Shown one piece after another: positions 19,291 through 33,963 of a stretch of DNA of 33,981 bases. A program made the position numbers and the translations under genes. The DNA lies in the IMG/VR virus record IMGVR_UViG_3300030107_000821, positions 1 to 33,981 of that record. One strand, 5' to 3'. Positions within the stretch are counted from its first letter, which is position 1; each line of letters opens with the position of its first letter. The notes under the pieces were generated by a model. That model was not told the DNA's origin. It worked only from the letters and a program-made list of their open reading frames with translations, and searched no databases. Source of the DNA: a virus.

Positions 19291-22200
19291 ATGGCAACAA
19301 CTTTCGTAGATTTTACAGGTGATGGGAATGCAACAAAAGCATTCTCATTTCCTTCTTACAAGGAAGCCGATATTAAAGTAGATGTTGATGGAGTCGTTAA
19401 AACATCAGGTTCACATTATAACATTACCAGCTATACTACAACAGGTGGTGGTAATGTTGTATTTACGTCAGGCAATATACCATCCAGCCCAGCCGCTATA
19501 CGTATTTATCGTGATACAGATGTAGACACCGCTAAAGCAACTTTTACAGCAGGATCGGCAGTTAAGGCAGCAGACCTTAACAATAATATGACGCAGATAT
19601 TATATGCTGCACAAGAAGAACAGAATCAAACAATACAAACTACTGATCTTAAGGATGGTGCTATTACAAGTGCTAAGATACTAGATGGTACAATAGCTAC
19701 AGCTGACATAGCAGCAGATGCTATAACAGGTGCAAAGATTGCAGACGATCAAATCAATTCAGAGCATTACGTAGATGGATCTATAGATACTGCGCATATA
19801 GCTGATAGTCAAGTCACTACAGCTAAAATCGCAGCTGATGCAATAAATGGAACAAAGATAGCAGATGATTCAATCAATTCTGAGCATTATGTTGATGGTA
19901 GCATTGATACTGCTCACATTGCAGACTCTCAGGTAACTACAGCTAAAATAGCTGATGCAAATGTAACAACTGCTAAGATTACAGACTTAAATGTAACTAC
20001 AGCTAAGATAGCAGCAGACGCAATTACTGGAGCTAAGATAGCCGATGACGCTGTAGATTCTGAGCATCTAGCAGCAGACTCAATTGATGCTGAACATTAT
20101 GCAGCAGGTTCTGTAGATACTACAGCTCTTGGTGCTGATGCAGTAACAGGTGCTAAGATAGCAGACGATGCTATAGACTCAGAACATTATGCGGCTGATT
20201 CTATTGACGCTGAACATTATGCGGCTGCATCAGTAGACGCTACAGCTTTAGCTTCTAACGCTGTAACTACTGCTAAGATTACAGACGCTAACGTAACAAC
20301 AGCTAAACTGGCTGCTGACTCAGTAACTATTGCTAAGATAGGTTGTGAACAAACGACTATATCTGATAGCGACTCACACATTCCTACATCAGGAGCTGTT
20401 GTAGATTATGTTGCTGCACAACTAGCACCTATTGGTGGTCTTGAAGTTATCGCAGATGATGAATCATTCCCTAATACGATCCCATCAGCTGGTGTTGTAA
20501 TTAGTATATCTGATGCAGCTGGTTTACAAGTCAATTCAAGTGGTGTATCAACTAATGCAGATGCTCTTGATAACTCAACTATAACTATTAACGGATTTCC
20601 TAGTGAATTAAGAGGTGGAGTTGGTTCAAATCCTGATCCTTATGTATTCCAGTCAGGTGCTGGTTTAATGGTTCAGTCTACTGGATCAAGTCATACTTAT
20701 AATTATCATCAAGCAATGATAAGGGAGTCTGACTTTGTACAGTTAAGTGATGACATTAATGATTTTAATAATCGTTATCGTGTAAATGCTGGAGAACCCG
20801 GATCAAGTAACGATGAAGGTGATTTAGTATACGACACTAATGCTAACAAGATGAAGGTGTATGACTCTTCAACTTCAGCATGGAAAGAGGTTACATCAAC
20901 TGGAGACTTTAAATATCTATTCTTATGTCCAGCCGGTGGTACTGGAGCACCTACTTTAAATGGTAGTATAGCTACATATGATTTACGTGAAAGCAGTAAC
21001 TCAGGTTCTGCTGCTAGTGTATCAAGTGCAGCTCAATTAGTAGTTAGTATTAATGGTGTAGTACAGAAAGCCAATACAGGTACTTCTGCACCCGCTGAAG
21101 GTTTTGCTTTAGTTGATGCTAACACTATTATCTTTGGTGCTAACTTAGCTAGTGGAGACTCTGTATTTATAGTACAGATTGGTTCTGCTGTAAGTATTCC
21201 TACACCGGGAGATGGTACAGTAAGTGCAGCTAAGATTGCAAGTGGAGCTGTTACTACAGTAAAGATAGCTGATGCTAACGTAACTACAGCTAAAATTGCA
21301 GACGATGCAGTAACCGCAGCTAAACTAGCAAGTGATGCAGTTGTTACAGCAAGTATTGTTGATGCTAATGTTACTACAGCTAAGATAGCGGGAGACGCTA
21401 TAACAGGAGCTAAAATTGCGGATGACGCAGTTGGTGCTGAACATATAGAAACATTAGATGCTAACGTAGATTTTGCTGATGATGCTAAAGCTAGATTTGG
21501 AGGTAGTAATCAGTTAGAACTTTATTATGGAAGTTCTGTAGGTAATTTAAAAACTACATCTGGTAATTTAGAACTTGGATCTGCTGGTAACGCCACAGTT
21601 AAAGTTAATGGAACTGAATCTGCTATAGTTTGTAATGCTAACGCAGCTGTTGATATATACCATAATGATTCTAAAACTGCATGGACACATGGTAGTGGAT
21701 TTAATATCAAAGGTGGTAATACAAGTGACCAGACAGAATTAATCATAACTGGTAACGAAGGTCAAGCTGCCTCAATTTTAATGAGTGCTGATGACGGTGA
21801 TGATAATGCAGACCATTGGAGAATGTATTCAAATGCCGATAACTCTTTTACTTTAACCAATTATACTGCTGGTTCTTACGAAACAAATATAAAAGCAGTT
21901 GGTAATGGAGCCGTAGAGCTATATTACGACAACAGTAAAAAGTTTGAAACAGCTTCGGCTGGATCTGCATTTACAGGTGGTGTATCTGGTAACTTATCTG
22001 CTGCATCTTCTGCAAGTACAATTACTTTAGATATGTCAGCAGCTTGTCATCATACTGTTACACTTGCACATAATACAACCTTCGCTGACCCTAGTAATGA
22101 GGTCGCCGGTCAATCGGGGTCCATCATAATTACGCAGGACGGCACGGGATCACGTACAGCAGCATGGAACTCAGCTTGGAAGTGGACAGGTGGAACTGCA

Positions 22201-24934: not shown

Positions 24935-26082
24935 TGGCATTAACACAATTAAAAACAGGAGCTATAGCTGATGATGCTGTTACAACAGATAAGTTAGCTA
25001 ACGCTATAAATACAGAAAGAACAGCTAATACAGCAAAAACAACTAATGCTACTCATACAGGTGACGTTACAGGTGCTACAGGTTTAACTATTGCAGATAA
25101 TGCAGTAACACTAGCTAAGATGGCTGGTGGTACAGACGGTCAAATAATTACATATGATGCTTCTGGAGATCCAGTAGCAGTAGGTCCGGGAACAGACGGA
25201 CAAGTATTAACATCCACAGGAGCTGGTTCACCTCCAGCTTTTGAATCAATCCCTGCATCTGGAATTTCAGATGTAGTATCTGACACATCACCACAGCTAG
25301 GTGGTAACTTAGATGTCAATACTAAAAATATTGTATTTGGAGATACTGGCGGTGTTAGTGATGATCGTTTAGTATTTGGTGCTGGCACAGATTTATCTAT
25401 ATATCACGATGGGTCAAACAGTTTTCTTGCAAATACAACAGGTCATTTAATTAGTCGTTCAGATAGTATAAAATTACAAGATTATACTAATGGTCATGAC
25501 ATGATTACTGCAACCCAAGATGGAGCCGTAGAATTATACTATGATAACAGTAAAAAGCTTGAGACTACAAGTGCTGGTGGAACGCTTACAGGTACATGGA
25601 ATGTTGGTAAAATTCTTCAAGTAGTATCAATAACTAAAAAAGGTGCTGTAACTAACTCTACAGGTTCTGCCAGTTGGTGGTCTTATAATAATTCAACTTT
25701 GAGAGCTGATATTACAGCATCAAGTGCAAGTAATAAATTTCTTGTTATAGCTAACATAACATGTACTGGTAACGGAGTAGGAGTTTTTGTTAAACTTATG
25801 GATGATGGTTCGGATGTAACTGATGCTTTAGGTGATGCTGCTGGTAGTAGAACTAGAGCAACATCCGGTCACTCCGAAGAAGATAGTCACTCAGCAACAA
25901 CTGCATCTATGAATGTTTTATTAAGTGCAGGAGATACGAACCAACATAGGTTCCATGTCGCATTTGCCCACACCTCTGGAAGTACCCAGACGATGTGTTT
26001 AAATAGAGGTCAAAATGATGGCGATGGGACTGATCGTGCTAGATATATTTCAACAATTACAGTACTGGAGATAGCAGCATGA
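24934..26082 (+). CDS. Second tail fibre-like protein
   Basis: A 382-residue protein. The N-terminus reuses fibre-shaft language (TGAIADDAVTTDKLANAIN, LTIADNAVTLAKM). The centre has SDTSPQLGGNLDVNTKNIV and a GAVELYYDNSKKLETTSAGG segment that nearly repeats the main fibre (GAVELYYDNSKKFETASAG). Residues about 225-382 form a beta-rich C-terminal domain (WNVGKILQVVSITKKGAV, WWSYNNSTLRADITASSAS, ending ARYISTITVLEIAA), a jelly-roll-like tip also seen in other marine phage fibres. It lacks the T7 tail-attachment domain, so it may bind the first fibre or act as a branch. Overlaps the next gene (ATGA). Confidence 0.83.
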   Translation: MALTQLKTGAIADDAVTTDKLANAINTERTANTAKTTNATHTGDVTGATGLTIADNAVTLAKMAGGTDGQIITYDASGDPVAVGPGTDGQVLTSTGAGSPPAFESIPASGISDVVSDTSPQLGGNLDVNTKNIVFGDTGGVSDDRLVFGAGTDLSIYHDGSNSFLANTTGHLISRSDSIKLQDYTNGHDMITATQDGAVELYYDNSKKLETTSAGGTLTGTWNVGKILQVVSITKKGAVTNSTGSASWWSYNNSTLRADITASSASNKFLVIANITCTGNGVGVFVKLMDDGSDVTDALGDAAGSRTRATSGHSEEDSHSATTASMNVLLSAGDTNQHRFHVAFAHTSGSTQTMCLNRGQNDGDGTDRARYISTITVLEIAA

Positions 26083-29358: not shown

Positions 29359-31082
29359 TGGAAGAAGAAGAAAGAAGTTGGAGAGATCCTCGTAGTGGTG
29401 TAAGAACAGGTCTCGGTCTTGGTTTTGAAGTAGGAGCTAACTCAATATTAGATCTATTTTCCTTTGATCCGACAGGTGCGTCTCAATATGCTGGTGGTAC
29501 TTTTATAAACTACTTAGCACAGAAGATACGTGGTGGTGAAATTAGCCAAGGAGAACTTGTTGCAGCTGGATTAACTAGCTTAATCCCCGGCGGAGCACAA
29601 GCTAGAGCTTTAACTAGAGGTGGACGCTTCGCAAGAAGTGTAGCTAAAGGAGGACTTTCTGGTGGTATTACTACTACCAGTATGTCTCTTCTTGATGAAA
29701 AAGAATTACCTTCATTTGGTGAACTCGCAGGAGGAGTAACTGGTGGAGGCTTACTTGGAGGAGCTTTTGATTTAGCTCCAGCAACGTTTACTGGTAAACT
29801 TGGCACAGAAGTTTCTCAGATTACTGATGATACATTAGCTTTTACTAAAGCATTAAAGCATAAAATATCCACAGGTAAAGGGATAATACCTGATATGATC
29901 TTAGAAGGCGGTGTTATGGATATTGGTGCCGGTGGATTAGGACGTACAGGGGAGGGTCCTAAACCTATAGAATGGCGTTATATACCTCCTGATGCTGATG
30001 AGTCTTATAAGATAAACCTAAAGTTATTTAATGACGCAGCGTTAGAGGATGGTAATTTCAGCATTAAATTATACGATGCTGGTAAAACAAACGAGACTTG
30101 GCGACGAAAAGTTGGTATAAATTATCAAACTAATCCTCAAACTAGAGTTGGTTGGGAAAGAACCAAGAGAGAACTTAGGCATAATTGGGAAGCTTTATAT
30201 GGTTCGACTATGCAACGACTTGGTTATGACACTAAAGATATACAAATAGAACATATTTTTACACTTCAACAATCAATGCCTATCTATGAAGGTGTTAGAT
30301 TCGGAAGTCCTCTTTATAACGAGATCCAAGAATATATACTGAATAGAGGTTACGCACCCGGTAATACTGAAAAAAACTTAATGGCTATATTACCACATCT
30401 ACATCAACAAAAAACTAATTATTTCAACGCATTACATGGTAAAGATGGTAAAAGATTTTTTACTCAAGACATTATAGATGAAATGGTTAAGAGTAAGAAA
30501 TTTAGATTTGAAATGATAGATGAGTACTTAAAAGAAGTAGATATGGGTAAAAAAATACTAGATGACGCCTTAGAAGTATTTGATACTTTAAATATAGAAG
30601 GTCAAGATTATATGCCAGAAGAGCTTGCTGAAAGACTAGGTAAACTTGAGTTAAATGACTACTCAGCTCCAGAATTGAAAAAGATATTCTTAGATATGGA
30701 AGCAGAGGGATTTAAAACAAATCCTAAAGCAACTGCAAAAGCAGAAGCAGCTGAAATAAAAGAAGAAAAGCTGACAGCTGATACTAAAGCTAAAAAACAG
30801 AAAGAATTAGATAGAGATGCTATTTCAGTTCAAAGAAGAATTGAACAATTAGGCAGTGCTCCGATAGATAAGTTTACTAATCCATATACTCTTAACATGA
30901 AAGATGAAGGGTTACGGGAATTAGCTGAAAAAGCTTATAAAGAAACACAACAATATAAATTAACGTTAGGACCACAGCAACTAAAATTTGACATCTTTGA
31001 ACTGGAAGATAAAGAAAAATGGATTAAAAAGTATATGCGAAGAACTCTTGATAACATAAAAAGAGAACTTAAGAAGAAATGA
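29358..31082 (+). CDS. Large protein with Gly/Ala-rich N-terminal region and HNH-like nuclease core; unknown role
   Basis: A 574-residue protein. Residues about 15-140 are Gly/Ala/Leu-rich with weak hydrophobic segments (GLGLGFEVGANSILDLFSF, ISQGELVAAGLTSLIPGG, GGVTGGGLLGGAFDL), like the N-terminal export or membrane-association region of polymorphic toxins and some marine-phage ejected proteins. Residues about 290-365 contain D-I-Q-I-E298-H299-I followed at N340-L-M-A-I-L-P-H-L-H349-x2-K352-TNYF-x-ALHG, an arrangement matching a His-Me finger/HNH nuclease (EHI, N, H-x2-K). A Lys/Glu-rich coiled-coil-like stretch (about 440-500) and a basic tail follow. It overlaps terL (ATGA). It may be an ejected host-DNA nuclease, a packaging nuclease or a toxin; no immunity-like gene is evident. 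Confidence 0.6.
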   Translation: MEEEERSWRDPRSGVRTGLGLGFEVGANSILDLFSFDPTGASQYAGGTFINYLAQKIRGGEISQGELVAAGLTSLIPGGAQARALTRGGRFARSVAKGGLSGGITTTSMSLLDEKELPSFGELAGGVTGGGLLGGAFDLAPATFTGKLGTEVSQITDDTLAFTKALKHKISTGKGIIPDMILEGGVMDIGAGGLGRTGEGPKPIEWRYIPPDADESYKINLKLFNDAALEDGNFSIKLYDAGKTNETWRRKVGINYQTNPQTRVGWERTKRELRHNWEALYGSTMQRLGYDTKDIQIEHIFTLQQSMPIYEGVRFGSPLYNEIQEYILNRGYAPGNTEKNLMAILPHLHQQKTNYFNALHGKDGKRFFTQDIIDEMVKSKKFRFEMIDEYLKEVDMGKKILDDALEVFDTLNIEGQDYMPEELAERLGKLELNDYSAPELKKIFLDMEAEGFKTNPKATAKAEAAEIKEEKLTADTKAKKQKELDRDAISVQRRIEQLGSAPIDKFTNPYTLNMKDEGLRELAEKAYKETQQYKLTLGPQQLKFDIFELEDKEKWIKKYMRRTLDNIKRELKKK

Positions 31083-32836
31083 ATAACACCCTAGCACTAT
31101 TACAACAAGATTTCAAGCTATTCCTACAGGCATTGTGGGGACAGCTTGATCTTCCTAGTCCTACAAGAGCACAATATGCAATTGCTGATTACATTCAATA
31201 TGGTCCCAAGCGACTACAAATACAGGCGTTTCGGGGAGTTGGTAAGAGCTGGATTACTGGTGCTTTTGTTCTTTGGACTCTATTTAACGACGCTGAAAAG
31301 AAAATAATGATCGTATCTGCATCTAAAGAACGTGCAGATAATATGTCTATTTTTTTACAAAAACTTATTATTGAAACACCATGGCTAAGTCAACTACAAC
31401 CGAAGTCGGACGATTCTCGCTGGAGTCGCATCAGCTTCGACGTAAACTGTTCTCCACACCAAGCCCCAAGCGTAAAATCGGTGGGAATCACTGGGCAGCT
31501 CACCGGAAGCCGAGCAGATCTCATGATTTTAGACGATGTAGAGGTTCCGGGCAACAGTATGACGGAGTTAATGCGTGAGAAGTTACTTCAACTCTGCACA
31601 GAAGCCGAAGCCATCCTTACGCCGAAAGACGATAGCCGTATTATGTATCTCGGGACTCCTCAGACTACTTTTACTATTTATCGTAAGCTGGCAGAGCGGA
31701 ATTACAGACCATTTGTTTGGCCCGCAAGATACCCCAGAGGTAAAAACATTAGCCAATACGAAGGACTCTTAGCACCAGAAATACAAGCAGATATAGACGG
31801 GGGAGCCGAAGAATGGGCTCCTACCGATCCAGACAGATTTGACAGCAACGACCTACTAGAACGTGAAGCTTCTATGGGTCGTAGCAACTACATGTTGCAA
31901 TTTCAACTAGACACAAGCCTATCAGATGCAGAGAAATTTCCACTTAAGATGGCTGATCTTATTATCACTTCTATTAACCCTAATACTGCACCCCAGAACG
32001 TCATATGGTGTTCAGATCCCACTAACGTCATCAAAGACGCCCCAACAGTTGGATTACCCGGGGACTTTTTCTATTCACCTATGCAAATGCAAGGAGATTG
32101 GAGTGAATATACAGAAACCATTTGTAGCGTGGATCCATCCGGTAGGGGTACAGACGAAACAGCGGCTTGTTATCTATCCCAAAAGAACGGAATCATCTAC
32201 TTGCATGAAATGCGAGCGTACAGAGACGGGTATAGTGATAATACCTTGCTCGACATCCTTAGAGGATGTAAAAAGTTCGGTGTTACGTCAATTGTTATCG
32301 AAACAAACTTTGGAGATGGTATAGTAAGTGAATTATTTAAGAAACATCTTATTCAGACAAAACAGAATGTCCATATCGAAGAGGTACGGGCTAACGTACG
32401 AAAAGAAGATAGAATTATTGATAGCCTTGAGCCTATCCTTAACCAGCATCGCCTTGTTGTTGATAGGGGTGTTATTGATTGGGACTACAGAAGCAATAGA
32501 GAAGCAGCTCCAGAAGAACGACTCCTATACATGCTCTTCTACCAGATGTCTAGAATGTGTAGACAGAAAGGAGCAGTCAAACATGATGACAGATTAGACT
32601 GCCTAGCACAGGGAGTAAAGTACTTCACAGACGCTTTACATATAAGTGCATCAGAAGAGATAAAGAGACGTAAGCAAGAAGAGTTCCAGAGCATCCTAGA
32701 AGACTTCATAGACAGCCCTAAAGCCAGTGCTAACCATTTAGTACTTGGTATGTCTTTAGAACAGCGTAGAGAGGCTATGGGACGTGAATCAGGAAATCAG
32801 GTTCCAACGTGGACTAAGTCGATCCCTCACGTATAG
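31079..32836 (+). CDS. Terminase large subunit, T7 gp19-like
   Basis: A 585-residue packaging motor, the same length as T7 gp19 (586 aa). The ATPase half has a Walker A motif QAFRGVGKSW (residues 49-58) and Walker B LMILDDVEV (148-156), and the GTPQTTF coupling motif at 192-198. The nuclease half has the acidic residues D352 (SVDPSGRGTDE), E408 (IVIETNFGDG) and D503/D504 (KHDDRLDCLAQG), as expected for the RNase H-like domain. It translocates DNA into the procapsid and cuts concatemers. ATGA overlap with the preceding gene. The T7 order is terS, (18.5), terL; here three extra genes intervene. Confidence 0.97.
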   Translation: MNNTLALLQQDFKLFLQALWGQLDLPSPTRAQYAIADYIQYGPKRLQIQAFRGVGKSWITGAFVLWTLFNDAEKKIMIVSASKERADNMSIFLQKLIIETPWLSQLQPKSDDSRWSRISFDVNCSPHQAPSVKSVGITGQLTGSRADLMILDDVEVPGNSMTELMREKLLQLCTEAEAILTPKDDSRIMYLGTPQTTFTIYRKLAERNYRPFVWPARYPRGKNISQYEGLLAPEIQADIDGGAEEWAPTDPDRFDSNDLLEREASMGRSNYMLQFQLDTSLSDAEKFPLKMADLIITSINPNTAPQNVIWCSDPTNVIKDAPTVGLPGDFFYSPMQMQGDWSEYTETICSVDPSGRGTDETAACYLSQKNGIIYLHEMRAYRDGYSDNTLLDILRGCKKFGVTSIVIETNFGDGIVSELFKKHLIQTKQNVHIEEVRANVRKEDRIIDSLEPILNQHRLVVDRGVIDWDYRSNREAAPEERLLYMLFYQMSRMCRQKGAVKHDDRLDCLAQGVKYFTDALHISASEEIKRRKQEEFQSILEDFIDSPKASANHLVLGMSLEQRREAMGRESGNQVPTWTKSIPHV

Positions 32837-32867: not shown

Positions 32868-32908
32868 GAGGGAAATCGTTGTCTTAATCGACAACATCTC
32901 CCTCTTTT
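32868..32908 (+). terminator. Intrinsic terminator after terL
   Basis: GAGGGA (32868-32873) pairs with TCCCTC (32899-32904); inside, GTTGTC (32878-32883) pairs with GACAAC (32890-32895); TTTT follows at 32905-32908. A smaller hairpin, GGGTG-GACT-CACCC (32849-32862), lies just upstream, and GAGGG at 32836-32840 could also pair with CCCTC, so alternative folding is possible. It closes the long late transcript. Confidence 0.78.
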
Positions 32909-33068
32909 ATCTAATATCATCATTTGATATTCTTTAAAACACCTACTCTACACCCCCTTTAACAGTGTATTACCGTATTATACCGAACTATACAGGCGGT
33001 AACCCGTTAAATTTTAACATAAATTTGAGAAGCCATATATACGAGGGAACGAGGACGAAAATCCCCCC

Positions 33069-33096
33069 TTGACGCAGTCAGTAAAATAGTTAAAAG
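33069..33096 (+). promoter_or_regulatory. Possible sigma-70 promoter in leader 1
   Basis: TTGACG (33069-33074, five of six to the -35 consensus) is followed after 16 bases by TAAAAG (33091-33096, four of six to the -10 consensus). It would start transcription about 250 bases before the first small gene, within the repeat-rich leader. The -10 is weak, so this is tentative. Confidence 0.4.
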
Positions 33097-33318
33097 AATC
33101 TCATTGAGACTCGAAATTCTCGTGAGACTCAACGAAGCAAGGACGGAGTCACACAGGACTCAACATGATACTGTCAAGATAATGTCATGATCTGTAAGCA
33201 TCACACTCATCTCAGTCTTAGTCCAGTATCAATCAGTATTATACTGAGATTCACAATCATATGCGACTCAAATAAGATGTGTGATAATGCTAACATCTCA
33301 ACCCATTCTCAATTTGGA

Positions 33319-33340
33319 CTGCTATAATAGTAGTATAAGA
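33319..33340 (+). promoter_or_regulatory. Extended -10 host-type promoter 1
   Basis: CTGCTATAATAG contains a perfect extended -10 (TGC-TATAAT, 33320-33328) and is followed by a TATAAGA. No good -35 is present, as expected for extended -10 promoters. It lies 28 bases before the ATG at 33357, with an AAGGAGA ribosome site (33344-33350) in between. Nineteen of 22 bases match the second promoter at 33942-33963. Host RNA polymerase would recognise it, so it is probably an early promoter. Confidence 0.78.
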
Positions 33341-33356
33341 CAAAAGGAGAAATTAA

Positions 33357-33548
33357 ATGATCAACATTGAGACACAAACTAAGACAGCATTTGGAACTGT
33401 GAGACACTATGTAATTAATGAGAATCAAGCTGATGCTATTAAAACACTAACTGGTAAATTAACTGTTAATGATAATGATTTGATAGCTTTAATGCAGTTA
33501 GGATTATCAGTTAATGGTAAATCTTTAAAAGAATTAATCGCTGTTTAA
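33357..33548 (+). CDS. Small conserved-type phage protein under extended -10 promoter
   Basis: A 63-residue protein, MINIETQTKTAFGTVRHYV, then NENQADAIKTLTGKLTVNDN and a LIALMQLGLSVNGKSLKEL end. AAGGAGA six bases before the ATG is one of the strongest ribosome sites in the window. The layout of a beta-hairpin start (QTKTAFGTVRHYV) followed by two helices with TGKLTVND resembles a small protein seen repeatedly in cyanophages; function unknown. The promoter position suggests early expression and a host-takeover role. Confidence 0.75.
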   Translation: MINIETQTKTAFGTVRHYVINENQADAIKTLTGKLTVNDNDLIALMQLGLSVNGKSLKELIAV

Positions 33549-33575
33549 TTGTTATTATTTAGGAGTATTATTATT

Positions 33576-33773
33576 ATGAATCATCAAAGATTTAAATTCT
33601 ATCATCATTCTACTAATTATTATAGACAGTTATATGATTCTATTAAACAATTAGAAGATAGTTGTAAAGAAATTAATTATGAAGTATTACCATCTACTAT
33701 TAATTATAAAAGAAATTCAAGTTTTATAAAAAGTAATAGTAATACAAATAAGTCTCATAAGAAAGTGGGTTGA
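33576..33773 (+). CDS. Small basic protein, Tyr/Asn/Ser-rich (65 residues)
   Basis: From the ATG at 33576, with AGGAG at 33561-33565; the upstream TTG at 33549 is less likely. Sequence begins MNHQRFKFYHHSTNYYRQLY and ends SNSNTNKSHKKVG. It is extremely AT-rich in codon choice, with many TAT/AAT codons, and is basic and Asn/Ser/Tyr-rich. No family is recognised. It follows the previous gene with a short gap and would share its transcript. Confidence 0.55.
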   Translation: MNHQRFKFYHHSTNYYRQLYDSIKQLEDSCKEINYEVLPSTINYKRNSSFIKSNSNTNKSHKKVG

Positions 33774-33941
33774 GTCCAAGCTGAGACCAGTTTGAGACTC
33801 ACACTCATTCTCACAATCATCTCATGCGTCTCATCAGACGTGTGGGATTCGTGAGGGATTCACAATCATACTAGGACGCAACCATGAGACTCAAGAGACT
33901 TATGTGGGATTCAACAAATCTCAAGTTAGACTCATTTAATT
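33774..33941. other. Non-coding leader region 2, shares repeats with leader 1
   Basis: No gene is visible. Repeated words include GAGACTC (33794-33800, 33886-33892), GTGGGATTC (33842-33850, 33904-33912), TCACACTCAT (33799-33808), TCACAATCAT (33811-33820) and GATTCACAATCAT (33857-33869); the last, the TCACACTCAT and GAGACTC words also occur in leader 1. CGTCT-CATC-AGACG forms a small hairpin (about 33827-33840). The region precedes a second extended -10 promoter. Confidence 0.75.
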
Positions 33942-33963
33942 CTGCTATAATAGAGATATAAGA
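33942..33963 (+). promoter_or_regulatory. Extended -10 host-type promoter 2, reading out of the window
   Basis: CTGCTATAATAG again gives a perfect TGC-TATAAT (33943-33951), followed by ATATAAGA. It nearly duplicates the promoter at 33319-33340. Transcription would pass the right window edge into the next gene, probably the start of the early region if the genome follows T7 order. The transcribed part visible here ends at 33981 without a start codon. Confidence 0.75.

Follow-up and report, generated by a model that had tools for sequence, protein, structure and literature searches.

Gene Content and Layout of the Locus

The DNA stretch analyzed here (the window, 33,981 nucleotides) is the whole of IMG/VR record IMGVR_UViG_3300030107_000821, which is classed as linear. 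It belongs to a T7-like cyanopodovirus, as a partial RNR gene and genes for portal, scaffold, psbA, major capsid protein and terL are present; the host is taken to be a marine cyanobacterium on the grounds of psbA and of the relatives. The last late gene is terL (terminase large subunit or DNA maturase B; 31079..32836, + strand), with 75% nucleotide identity to terL of P-SSP2, P-SSP3 and P-SSP7. On its 3′ side lies a Rho-independent terminator (32868..32909, +) made of a hairpin (32868-32905, −18.0 kcal/mol) and a T-run. Some large late genes contain coding repeats whose spacings are multiples of 30 bases (19646-21425 and 24962-25124).

Beyond the terminator, two non-coding leaders are separated by two small ORFs, ORFa (33357..33548, +; 63 aa) and ORFb (33576..33773, +; 65 aa). 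The preliminary description had placed two tiny genes between the leaders, and both are conserved in relatives. ORFa belongs to a phage-only family, has a predicted strand-strand-helix-helix-helix fold and has a homologue in cyanophage NATL2A-133 (E 4e-5). Each leader ends in a promoter module, named P1 and P2 respectively. As a fragment, the record ends 30 bases past the −10 hexamer of P2, ahead of any RNA polymerase (RNAP) gene.

A search with terL, from which 80 IMG/VR relatives were retained, provided 19 relatives with the order terL, cut site, terminal repeat, P1, ORFa, ORFb, P2 and early genes, read as far as the contigs reach and with ORFb either intact or shortened. Such contig counts overstate the evidence because the relatives share kinship and are not independent. 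In the longer relatives read (L015, G001 and G002), a T7-like RNAP gene is found after the early genes, around 4-6 kb further on, and the promoters come after the terminal repeat and ahead of the RNAP gene, with which they share orientation.

A Predicted Left Genome End

The feature had been delimited as 33100-33963 and assigned to the right end. The position is broadly correct; its beginning lies slightly upstream, at 33038, where the predicted repeat starts, and the end in question is that of the contig, not the right end of the genome. The presence of a terminase cut-site block and of a pause word led us to view it instead as the left end of the genome. The last ~950 bases of the window are thus predicted to be the left end of the phage genome, joined to the right end via the terminal repeat.

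The cut-site block (33018..33043, +) reads CATAAATTTGAGAAGCCATA followed by TATACG, and the predicted left genome end, 33038, is the first base of the latter. Its pattern has a single match in the window, against 0.01 expected. The experimentally mapped end of P-SSP7 has a similar block, as have the S-SBP1, T7, T3 and gh-1 records at their ends; the Syn5 block resembles it more loosely, and that of SP6 is different. The ends of P-SSP7, a cultured T7-like phage of Prochlorococcus, were mapped by Sabehi and Lindell, who found a 206-bp direct terminal repeat that had been masked in the assembly by joining of the ends (PMC3350473). The P-SSP7 repeat opens with TATACGATG and is preceded by TCTGAGGTCATA; the S-SBP1 record opens likewise.

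The right edge of the predicted repeat is marked by ATCTGTA (33190..33196, +), a class II pause or concatemer-junction word found at the repeat edges of T7-like phages. In T7, ATCTGTT is a class II terminator of the phage RNAP, located in the concatemer junction (PMC11617373), and Syn5 RNAP likewise stops at ATCTGTT (PMC9624206). The window carries ATCTGTAAGC at 33190, and relatives carry ATCTGTTGGC and variants in the same place, with the form ATCTGT(T/A/C)NGC at the predicted edge. When the first 250 bases of seven T7-like phages with known repeats were examined (L094, L151, L152, L153, L095, L088 and L089), A[TC]CTGT was found to start immediately beyond the last repeat base in T7, T3, Syn5, P-SSP7 and S-SBP1, and no more than 3 nt from the edge in SP6 and gh-1, hence in 7/7. 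The chance that a random position falls within 6 nt of a word of this type is 1-2%. By itself, ATCTGT is not rare in the window; the weight lies in its conservation and in its place between the cut-site block and the first promoter. With the cut-site block on the left and the ATCTGT word on the right, a direct terminal repeat of 152 bp is predicted (33038..33189), which is present as one copy in the assembly. The earlier suggestion that the feature is part of a terminal repeat or early leader can thus be divided: the first half of leader 1 lies within the predicted repeat, while leader 2 lies further inside the genome and duplicates the promoter module.

If cut-site block and ATCTGTT at the repeat edge are used together, the genome ends of uncultured T7-like phages can be placed from sequence. 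Such a rule would be useful where assemblies tend to fuse the ends, as happened with P-SSP7.

Additional observations concern the end regions. Words like AACAAGGACGCA recur inside the predicted repeat, in leader 1 of L008, L009, L015, L016 and L066 (read in the first 600 bases after terL). They resemble GGACGCA, found beside the cut site, and may be packaging signals. In cultured NATL2A-133, GCGATCTGTTGAC lies upstream of the early genes (L177:2206), and its circular record probably conceals the edge of a terminal repeat at that point. A pho-box-like reading of CTGTCA/ATGTCA at 33171/33182 was discarded, as the words are found at the repeat edge in some relatives only. No tRNA genes were detected near the left ends of P-SSP7 and S-SBP1; two long relatives carry a tRNA-Asp (gtc) gene in their early regions (L175:13734-13807 and L176:7942-8015, both on the − strand).

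Words Shared by the Two Leaders

The shared words and promoter blocks were found where the preliminary description had located them. GATTCACAATCAT is present at 33248 and 33857, with two copies in the whole window and none on the minus strand; TCACACTCAT is found at 33201 and 33799 and TCACAATCAT at 33251, 33811 and 33860, without other copies in the window. GAGACTC, found at 33106, 33124, 33794 and 33886, occurs six times on the + strand and once on the − strand in 34 kb. The promoter block TGCTATAATAGNNGTATAAGA is found at 33320 and 33943 only, with 0.03 occurrences expected in the window, and the 22-mers match at 19/22 positions, hence differing at three.

When leader 1 (33090-33330) was compared with leader 2 (33774-33940), 21 8-mers were found to be common, against 2.0 ± 1.9 (maximum 12) in 1,000 dinucleotide shuffles; for 9-mers, the figures were 14 and 0.55 (maximum 5). 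Most of the common words are absent elsewhere in the 34 kb. Similar density across the genome had been named as an observation that would speak against the feature; across the window, the words are almost absent outside the leaders. The view of the leaders as duplicates holds for the shared words, with the qualification that their likeness is that of a homologous module with insertions and deletions and not that of a plain copy.

As the leaders contain 13 GANTC sites, around nine times the background, we considered DNA methylation. The words keep to one strand (GACTC and GATTC, with hardly any GAGTC or GAATC), and GANTC methylation was rejected because a palindromic methylation site would be indifferent to the strand.

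Two Promoter Modules with Boxes at Fixed Distances

P1 and P2 lie at the 3′ ends of homologous modules of ~90 bp. P1 (33254..33342, +) comprises upstream boxes and an extended −10, and matches profile R1 with 75.8 bits (E 6e-23); P2 (33882..33965, +) matches it with 70.7 bits (E 2.5e-21), scores that must be read bearing in mind that the profile was trained on a set including both modules. Nothing else in the window exceeds 15 bits. In P1, ATCA/CTCA boxes start at −67, −56, −26 and −15 from the beginning of the −10 hexamer (33256..33311, +) and precede the extended −10 TGCTATAAT (33320..33328, +). In P2, CTCA boxes are found at −56, −26 and −15 (33890..33934, +), and the same extended −10 lies at 33943..33951 (+). 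The CTCA positions −56, −26 and −15 are identical in both modules. A Shine-Dalgarno sequence, AAGGAG, and then ORFa are found directly 3′ of P1.

Alignment of 32 modules showed that TATAAT is invariant, mostly with TGC in front. Two further words hardly vary: GTCTCA, immediately internal to the −35, and ATCTCA, located 11 bp upstream. The −35 hexamer varies across relatives and, in the window, is AACCCA in P1 and AAGTTA in P2; neither is the consensus TTGACA, and the weak −35 of P1 could make it a weak promoter. The initial proposal of host-type promoters preceded by regulator sites is borne out as regards the TATAAT with extended TG and the conserved words at fixed promoter distances; the consensus −35 of host σ70 promoters is lacking. 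A spacing test confirmed that the CTCA distances are fixed; a 10.5-bp helical rhythm of the words was not clean, and only the fixed distances were upheld.

Other identities for the block were considered. The region has no match to a known RNA family. A phage RNAP promoter was discarded: the block occurs at two early sites only in the window, longer relatives have two modules only, and the repetition of a motif before middle and late operons that characterizes such promoters was not found. In L015 (near 6511), as well as in L002, L008, L016 and L071, a third early promoter follows P2, with a TTGACT-type −35 and a TATAAT −10 and without boxes. Because the third promoter lacks the boxes, only P1 and P2 look regulated.

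Conservation, Duplication and Distribution of the Module

The P1 module is conserved in 19 relatives, with a mean identity of 0.73 versus 0.54 at the third codon positions of ORFa, and it is the more conserved of the two in 91% of 136 pairs. Conservation beyond that of adjacent third codon positions indicates purifying selection on the module. Between phages, likeness is 72% for P1-P1 and 71% for P2-P2, compared with 59% for P1-P2. In a tree, the P2 copies form one clade (support 0.997), which includes a single P1 copy, that of L079. Grouping of the P2 copies implies that the duplication predates the phage clade, with L079 perhaps reflecting one later exchange between copies.

Using a profile of the module, exactly two copies above 40 bits were found in 12 of the 15 longer records, on one strand and 0.4-0.8 kb apart; of the remainder, two had no match and one matched weakly over a part only (14.7 bits). 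When viral contigs were scanned with a pattern, 44 stretches were obtained, 34 with the module and 29 with two copies, although selection for the promoter core means that these figures do not measure module frequency. The 29 two-copy loci are always on one strand, 434-821 bp apart.

The module was absent from the stretches searched of the cultured phages P-SSP2, P-SSP7, P-GSP1, NATL1A-7, S-SBP1, S-CBP1, Syn5 and NATL2A-133. When cultured phages carrying the region were sought by DNA search, the cut-site block alone matched among cyanophages. A scan of genomes from 84,980 prokaryote species returned 12 occurrences of the core pattern, a number close to chance (7-8 by our estimate, with 18 fixed bases in 257 Gb). 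None was in a cyanobacterial genome, in a scan strict enough for a looser host regulon to escape.

A Putative Early Operator and Alternative Explanations

A conserved sequence that has been duplicated, is restricted to two sites per genome and lies beside the predicted terminal repeat suggests, with a probability of roughly two in three, a left genome end with tandem early promoters for the host polymerase and operators for a putative, probably phage-encoded regulator, which would bind the boxes and time or tune P1 and P2. Promoter activity, binding, the regulator and the sign of its effect are what we infer from these observations. P1 and P2 would be host σ70 promoters of the extended −10 type, read by the host RNA polymerase once the left end enters the cell, as A1-A3 are in T7, and would drive the first genes ahead of the synthesis of the phage RNA polymerase. 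Relative to the predicted start site, each promoter has CTCA-type boxes at about −38/−27, 11 bp apart and covering part of the poorly conserved −35, and a further box at about −68; at P1, another ATCA lies 11 bp above. The boxes lie on about the same face of the DNA, which fits the geometry of an operator, and the regulator would control the host polymerase at these two promoters only.

The regulator would most likely be phage-encoded because the composite was not found in cyanobacterial genomes. ORFa was rejected as a candidate: no solved DNA-binding protein matches its predicted fold, and the phage that harbors its homologue, NATL2A-133, lacks the module. MarR regulators were considered as well, as P-SSP7 encodes one (gp0.7, pMarR). 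A MarR gene was found in none of five relatives that bear the module, with positive controls, and the P-SSP7 protein had no tblastn match; hence, the gene that would define a MarR-regulated promoter class is missing from the relatives examined.

Alternatively, the boxes might be sites for a host transcription factor such as a response regulator, which would permit the phage to sense the state of the host. Response regulators often bind 11-bp direct repeats, a spacing found here at −26/−15 and, in P1, also at −67/−56, and host factors are already in the cell at the onset of phage gene expression. Against this, the core pattern is found in none of the cyanobacterial genomes scanned, and cultured relatives that infect the same host genera do not carry the module. 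We consider this explanation unlikely.

Another view is that the words are the counterpart of the T7 SRL array, made of packaging or concatemer-processing repeats next to the terminal repeat, in which case their proximity to promoters would be incidental. Leader 1 does overlap the predicted terminal repeat and its edge, and the T7 CCTAAAG words, many of them at 13-bp steps, occupy the same map position (175-355), after the terminal repeat and before A1. However, the T7 words are not tied to promoters, whereas here a second copy of the module occurs at P2, 0.6 kb further in, where the boxes keep their distances from the −10, and conservation extends into the −10 and the start site. An array of the SRL type is confined to the flank of the terminal repeat, and the words described here are also found at the internal P2. 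An SRL counterpart thus seems quite improbable. The literature provided nothing usable on T7 SRL/SRR repeats or on mapped early promoters of cyanopodoviruses.

One might also propose that P1 and P2 are plain constitutive promoters and that the words are functionless remnants of a local duplication. Tandem host promoters are indeed usual (T7, T3, gh-1), but one would not expect a functionless module to be more conserved than third codon positions, and drift should have erased the words if the duplication is older than the clade; we give this possibility very little credit. Lastly, an iteron-type replication origin, also contemplated in the preliminary description on account of repeated words within a short non-coding stretch, found no support here and is hardly credible, as the words keep fixed distances to promoters instead of forming an even array, the annotated primary origin of T3 lies downstream of the RNAP gene, and no initiator gene was seen nearby.

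Returning to a phage-encoded regulator, repression appears somewhat more likely than activation; activation by replacing the −35 contact is the less likely alternative. T7 Gp5.7 acts on A1-A3 and binds A1 at −40 to −27 (PMC5569994), the range where the proximal boxes lie in P1 and P2. As Gp5.7 acts over this range, the most economical role would be to shut off or tune early transcription. The parallel is incomplete, since Gp5.7 binds weakly at a consensus −35 and no upstream box pairs are known in T7.

A bolder proposal is that an uncultured, widespread clade of cyanopodoviruses possesses a phage-specific regulator that assembles on 11-bp direct-repeat boxes, arranged in pairs at two early promoters and no others, replaces the −35 contact and provides a true early switch before the phage makes its own RNAP. 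We regard this extension as doubtful. The opening round of transcription in T7-like phages is commonly assumed to start at constitutive host promoters. If the operator reading is true, a long, selected, duplicated operator at the first cyanophage promoters would mean that the early transcription step is regulated.

Comparison with Known Systems

The left ends of T7, T3 and gh-1 share with the window a terminal repeat, ATCTGTT at or near its edge and tandem, rightward host-type promoters before the RNAP gene. They differ in that genes lie between the promoters here, and in that each promoter has an extended, conserved module upstream and departs from the consensus at the −35. In T7, the −35 of the A promoters is TTGACT or TTGACA (PMC5569994). 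Because a consensus −35 is lacking, P1 and P2 may be said to work like promoters of the A1-A3 kind without being plain members of the class.

P-SSP7 resembles the window in its cut-site block, in a repeat that starts with TATACG, in the pause word at the edge and in the location of terL near the right end. In contrast, it has no promoter module and encodes the MarR regulator mentioned above, absent from the module-bearing relatives tested.

A different parallel is found in the middle promoters of T4, where a −10 is combined with a conserved MotA box near −30 that replaces the −35. Box and phage class are, however, different, and MotA is made during infection. No MotA-like protein was seen here.

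Among the early genes after P2, one found in a longer relative (L015:6634-6912) matches DUF3574 and, weakly, S-adenosylmethionine lyase. The early region of T3 also contains an anti-restriction gene of the S-adenosylmethionine lyase kind.
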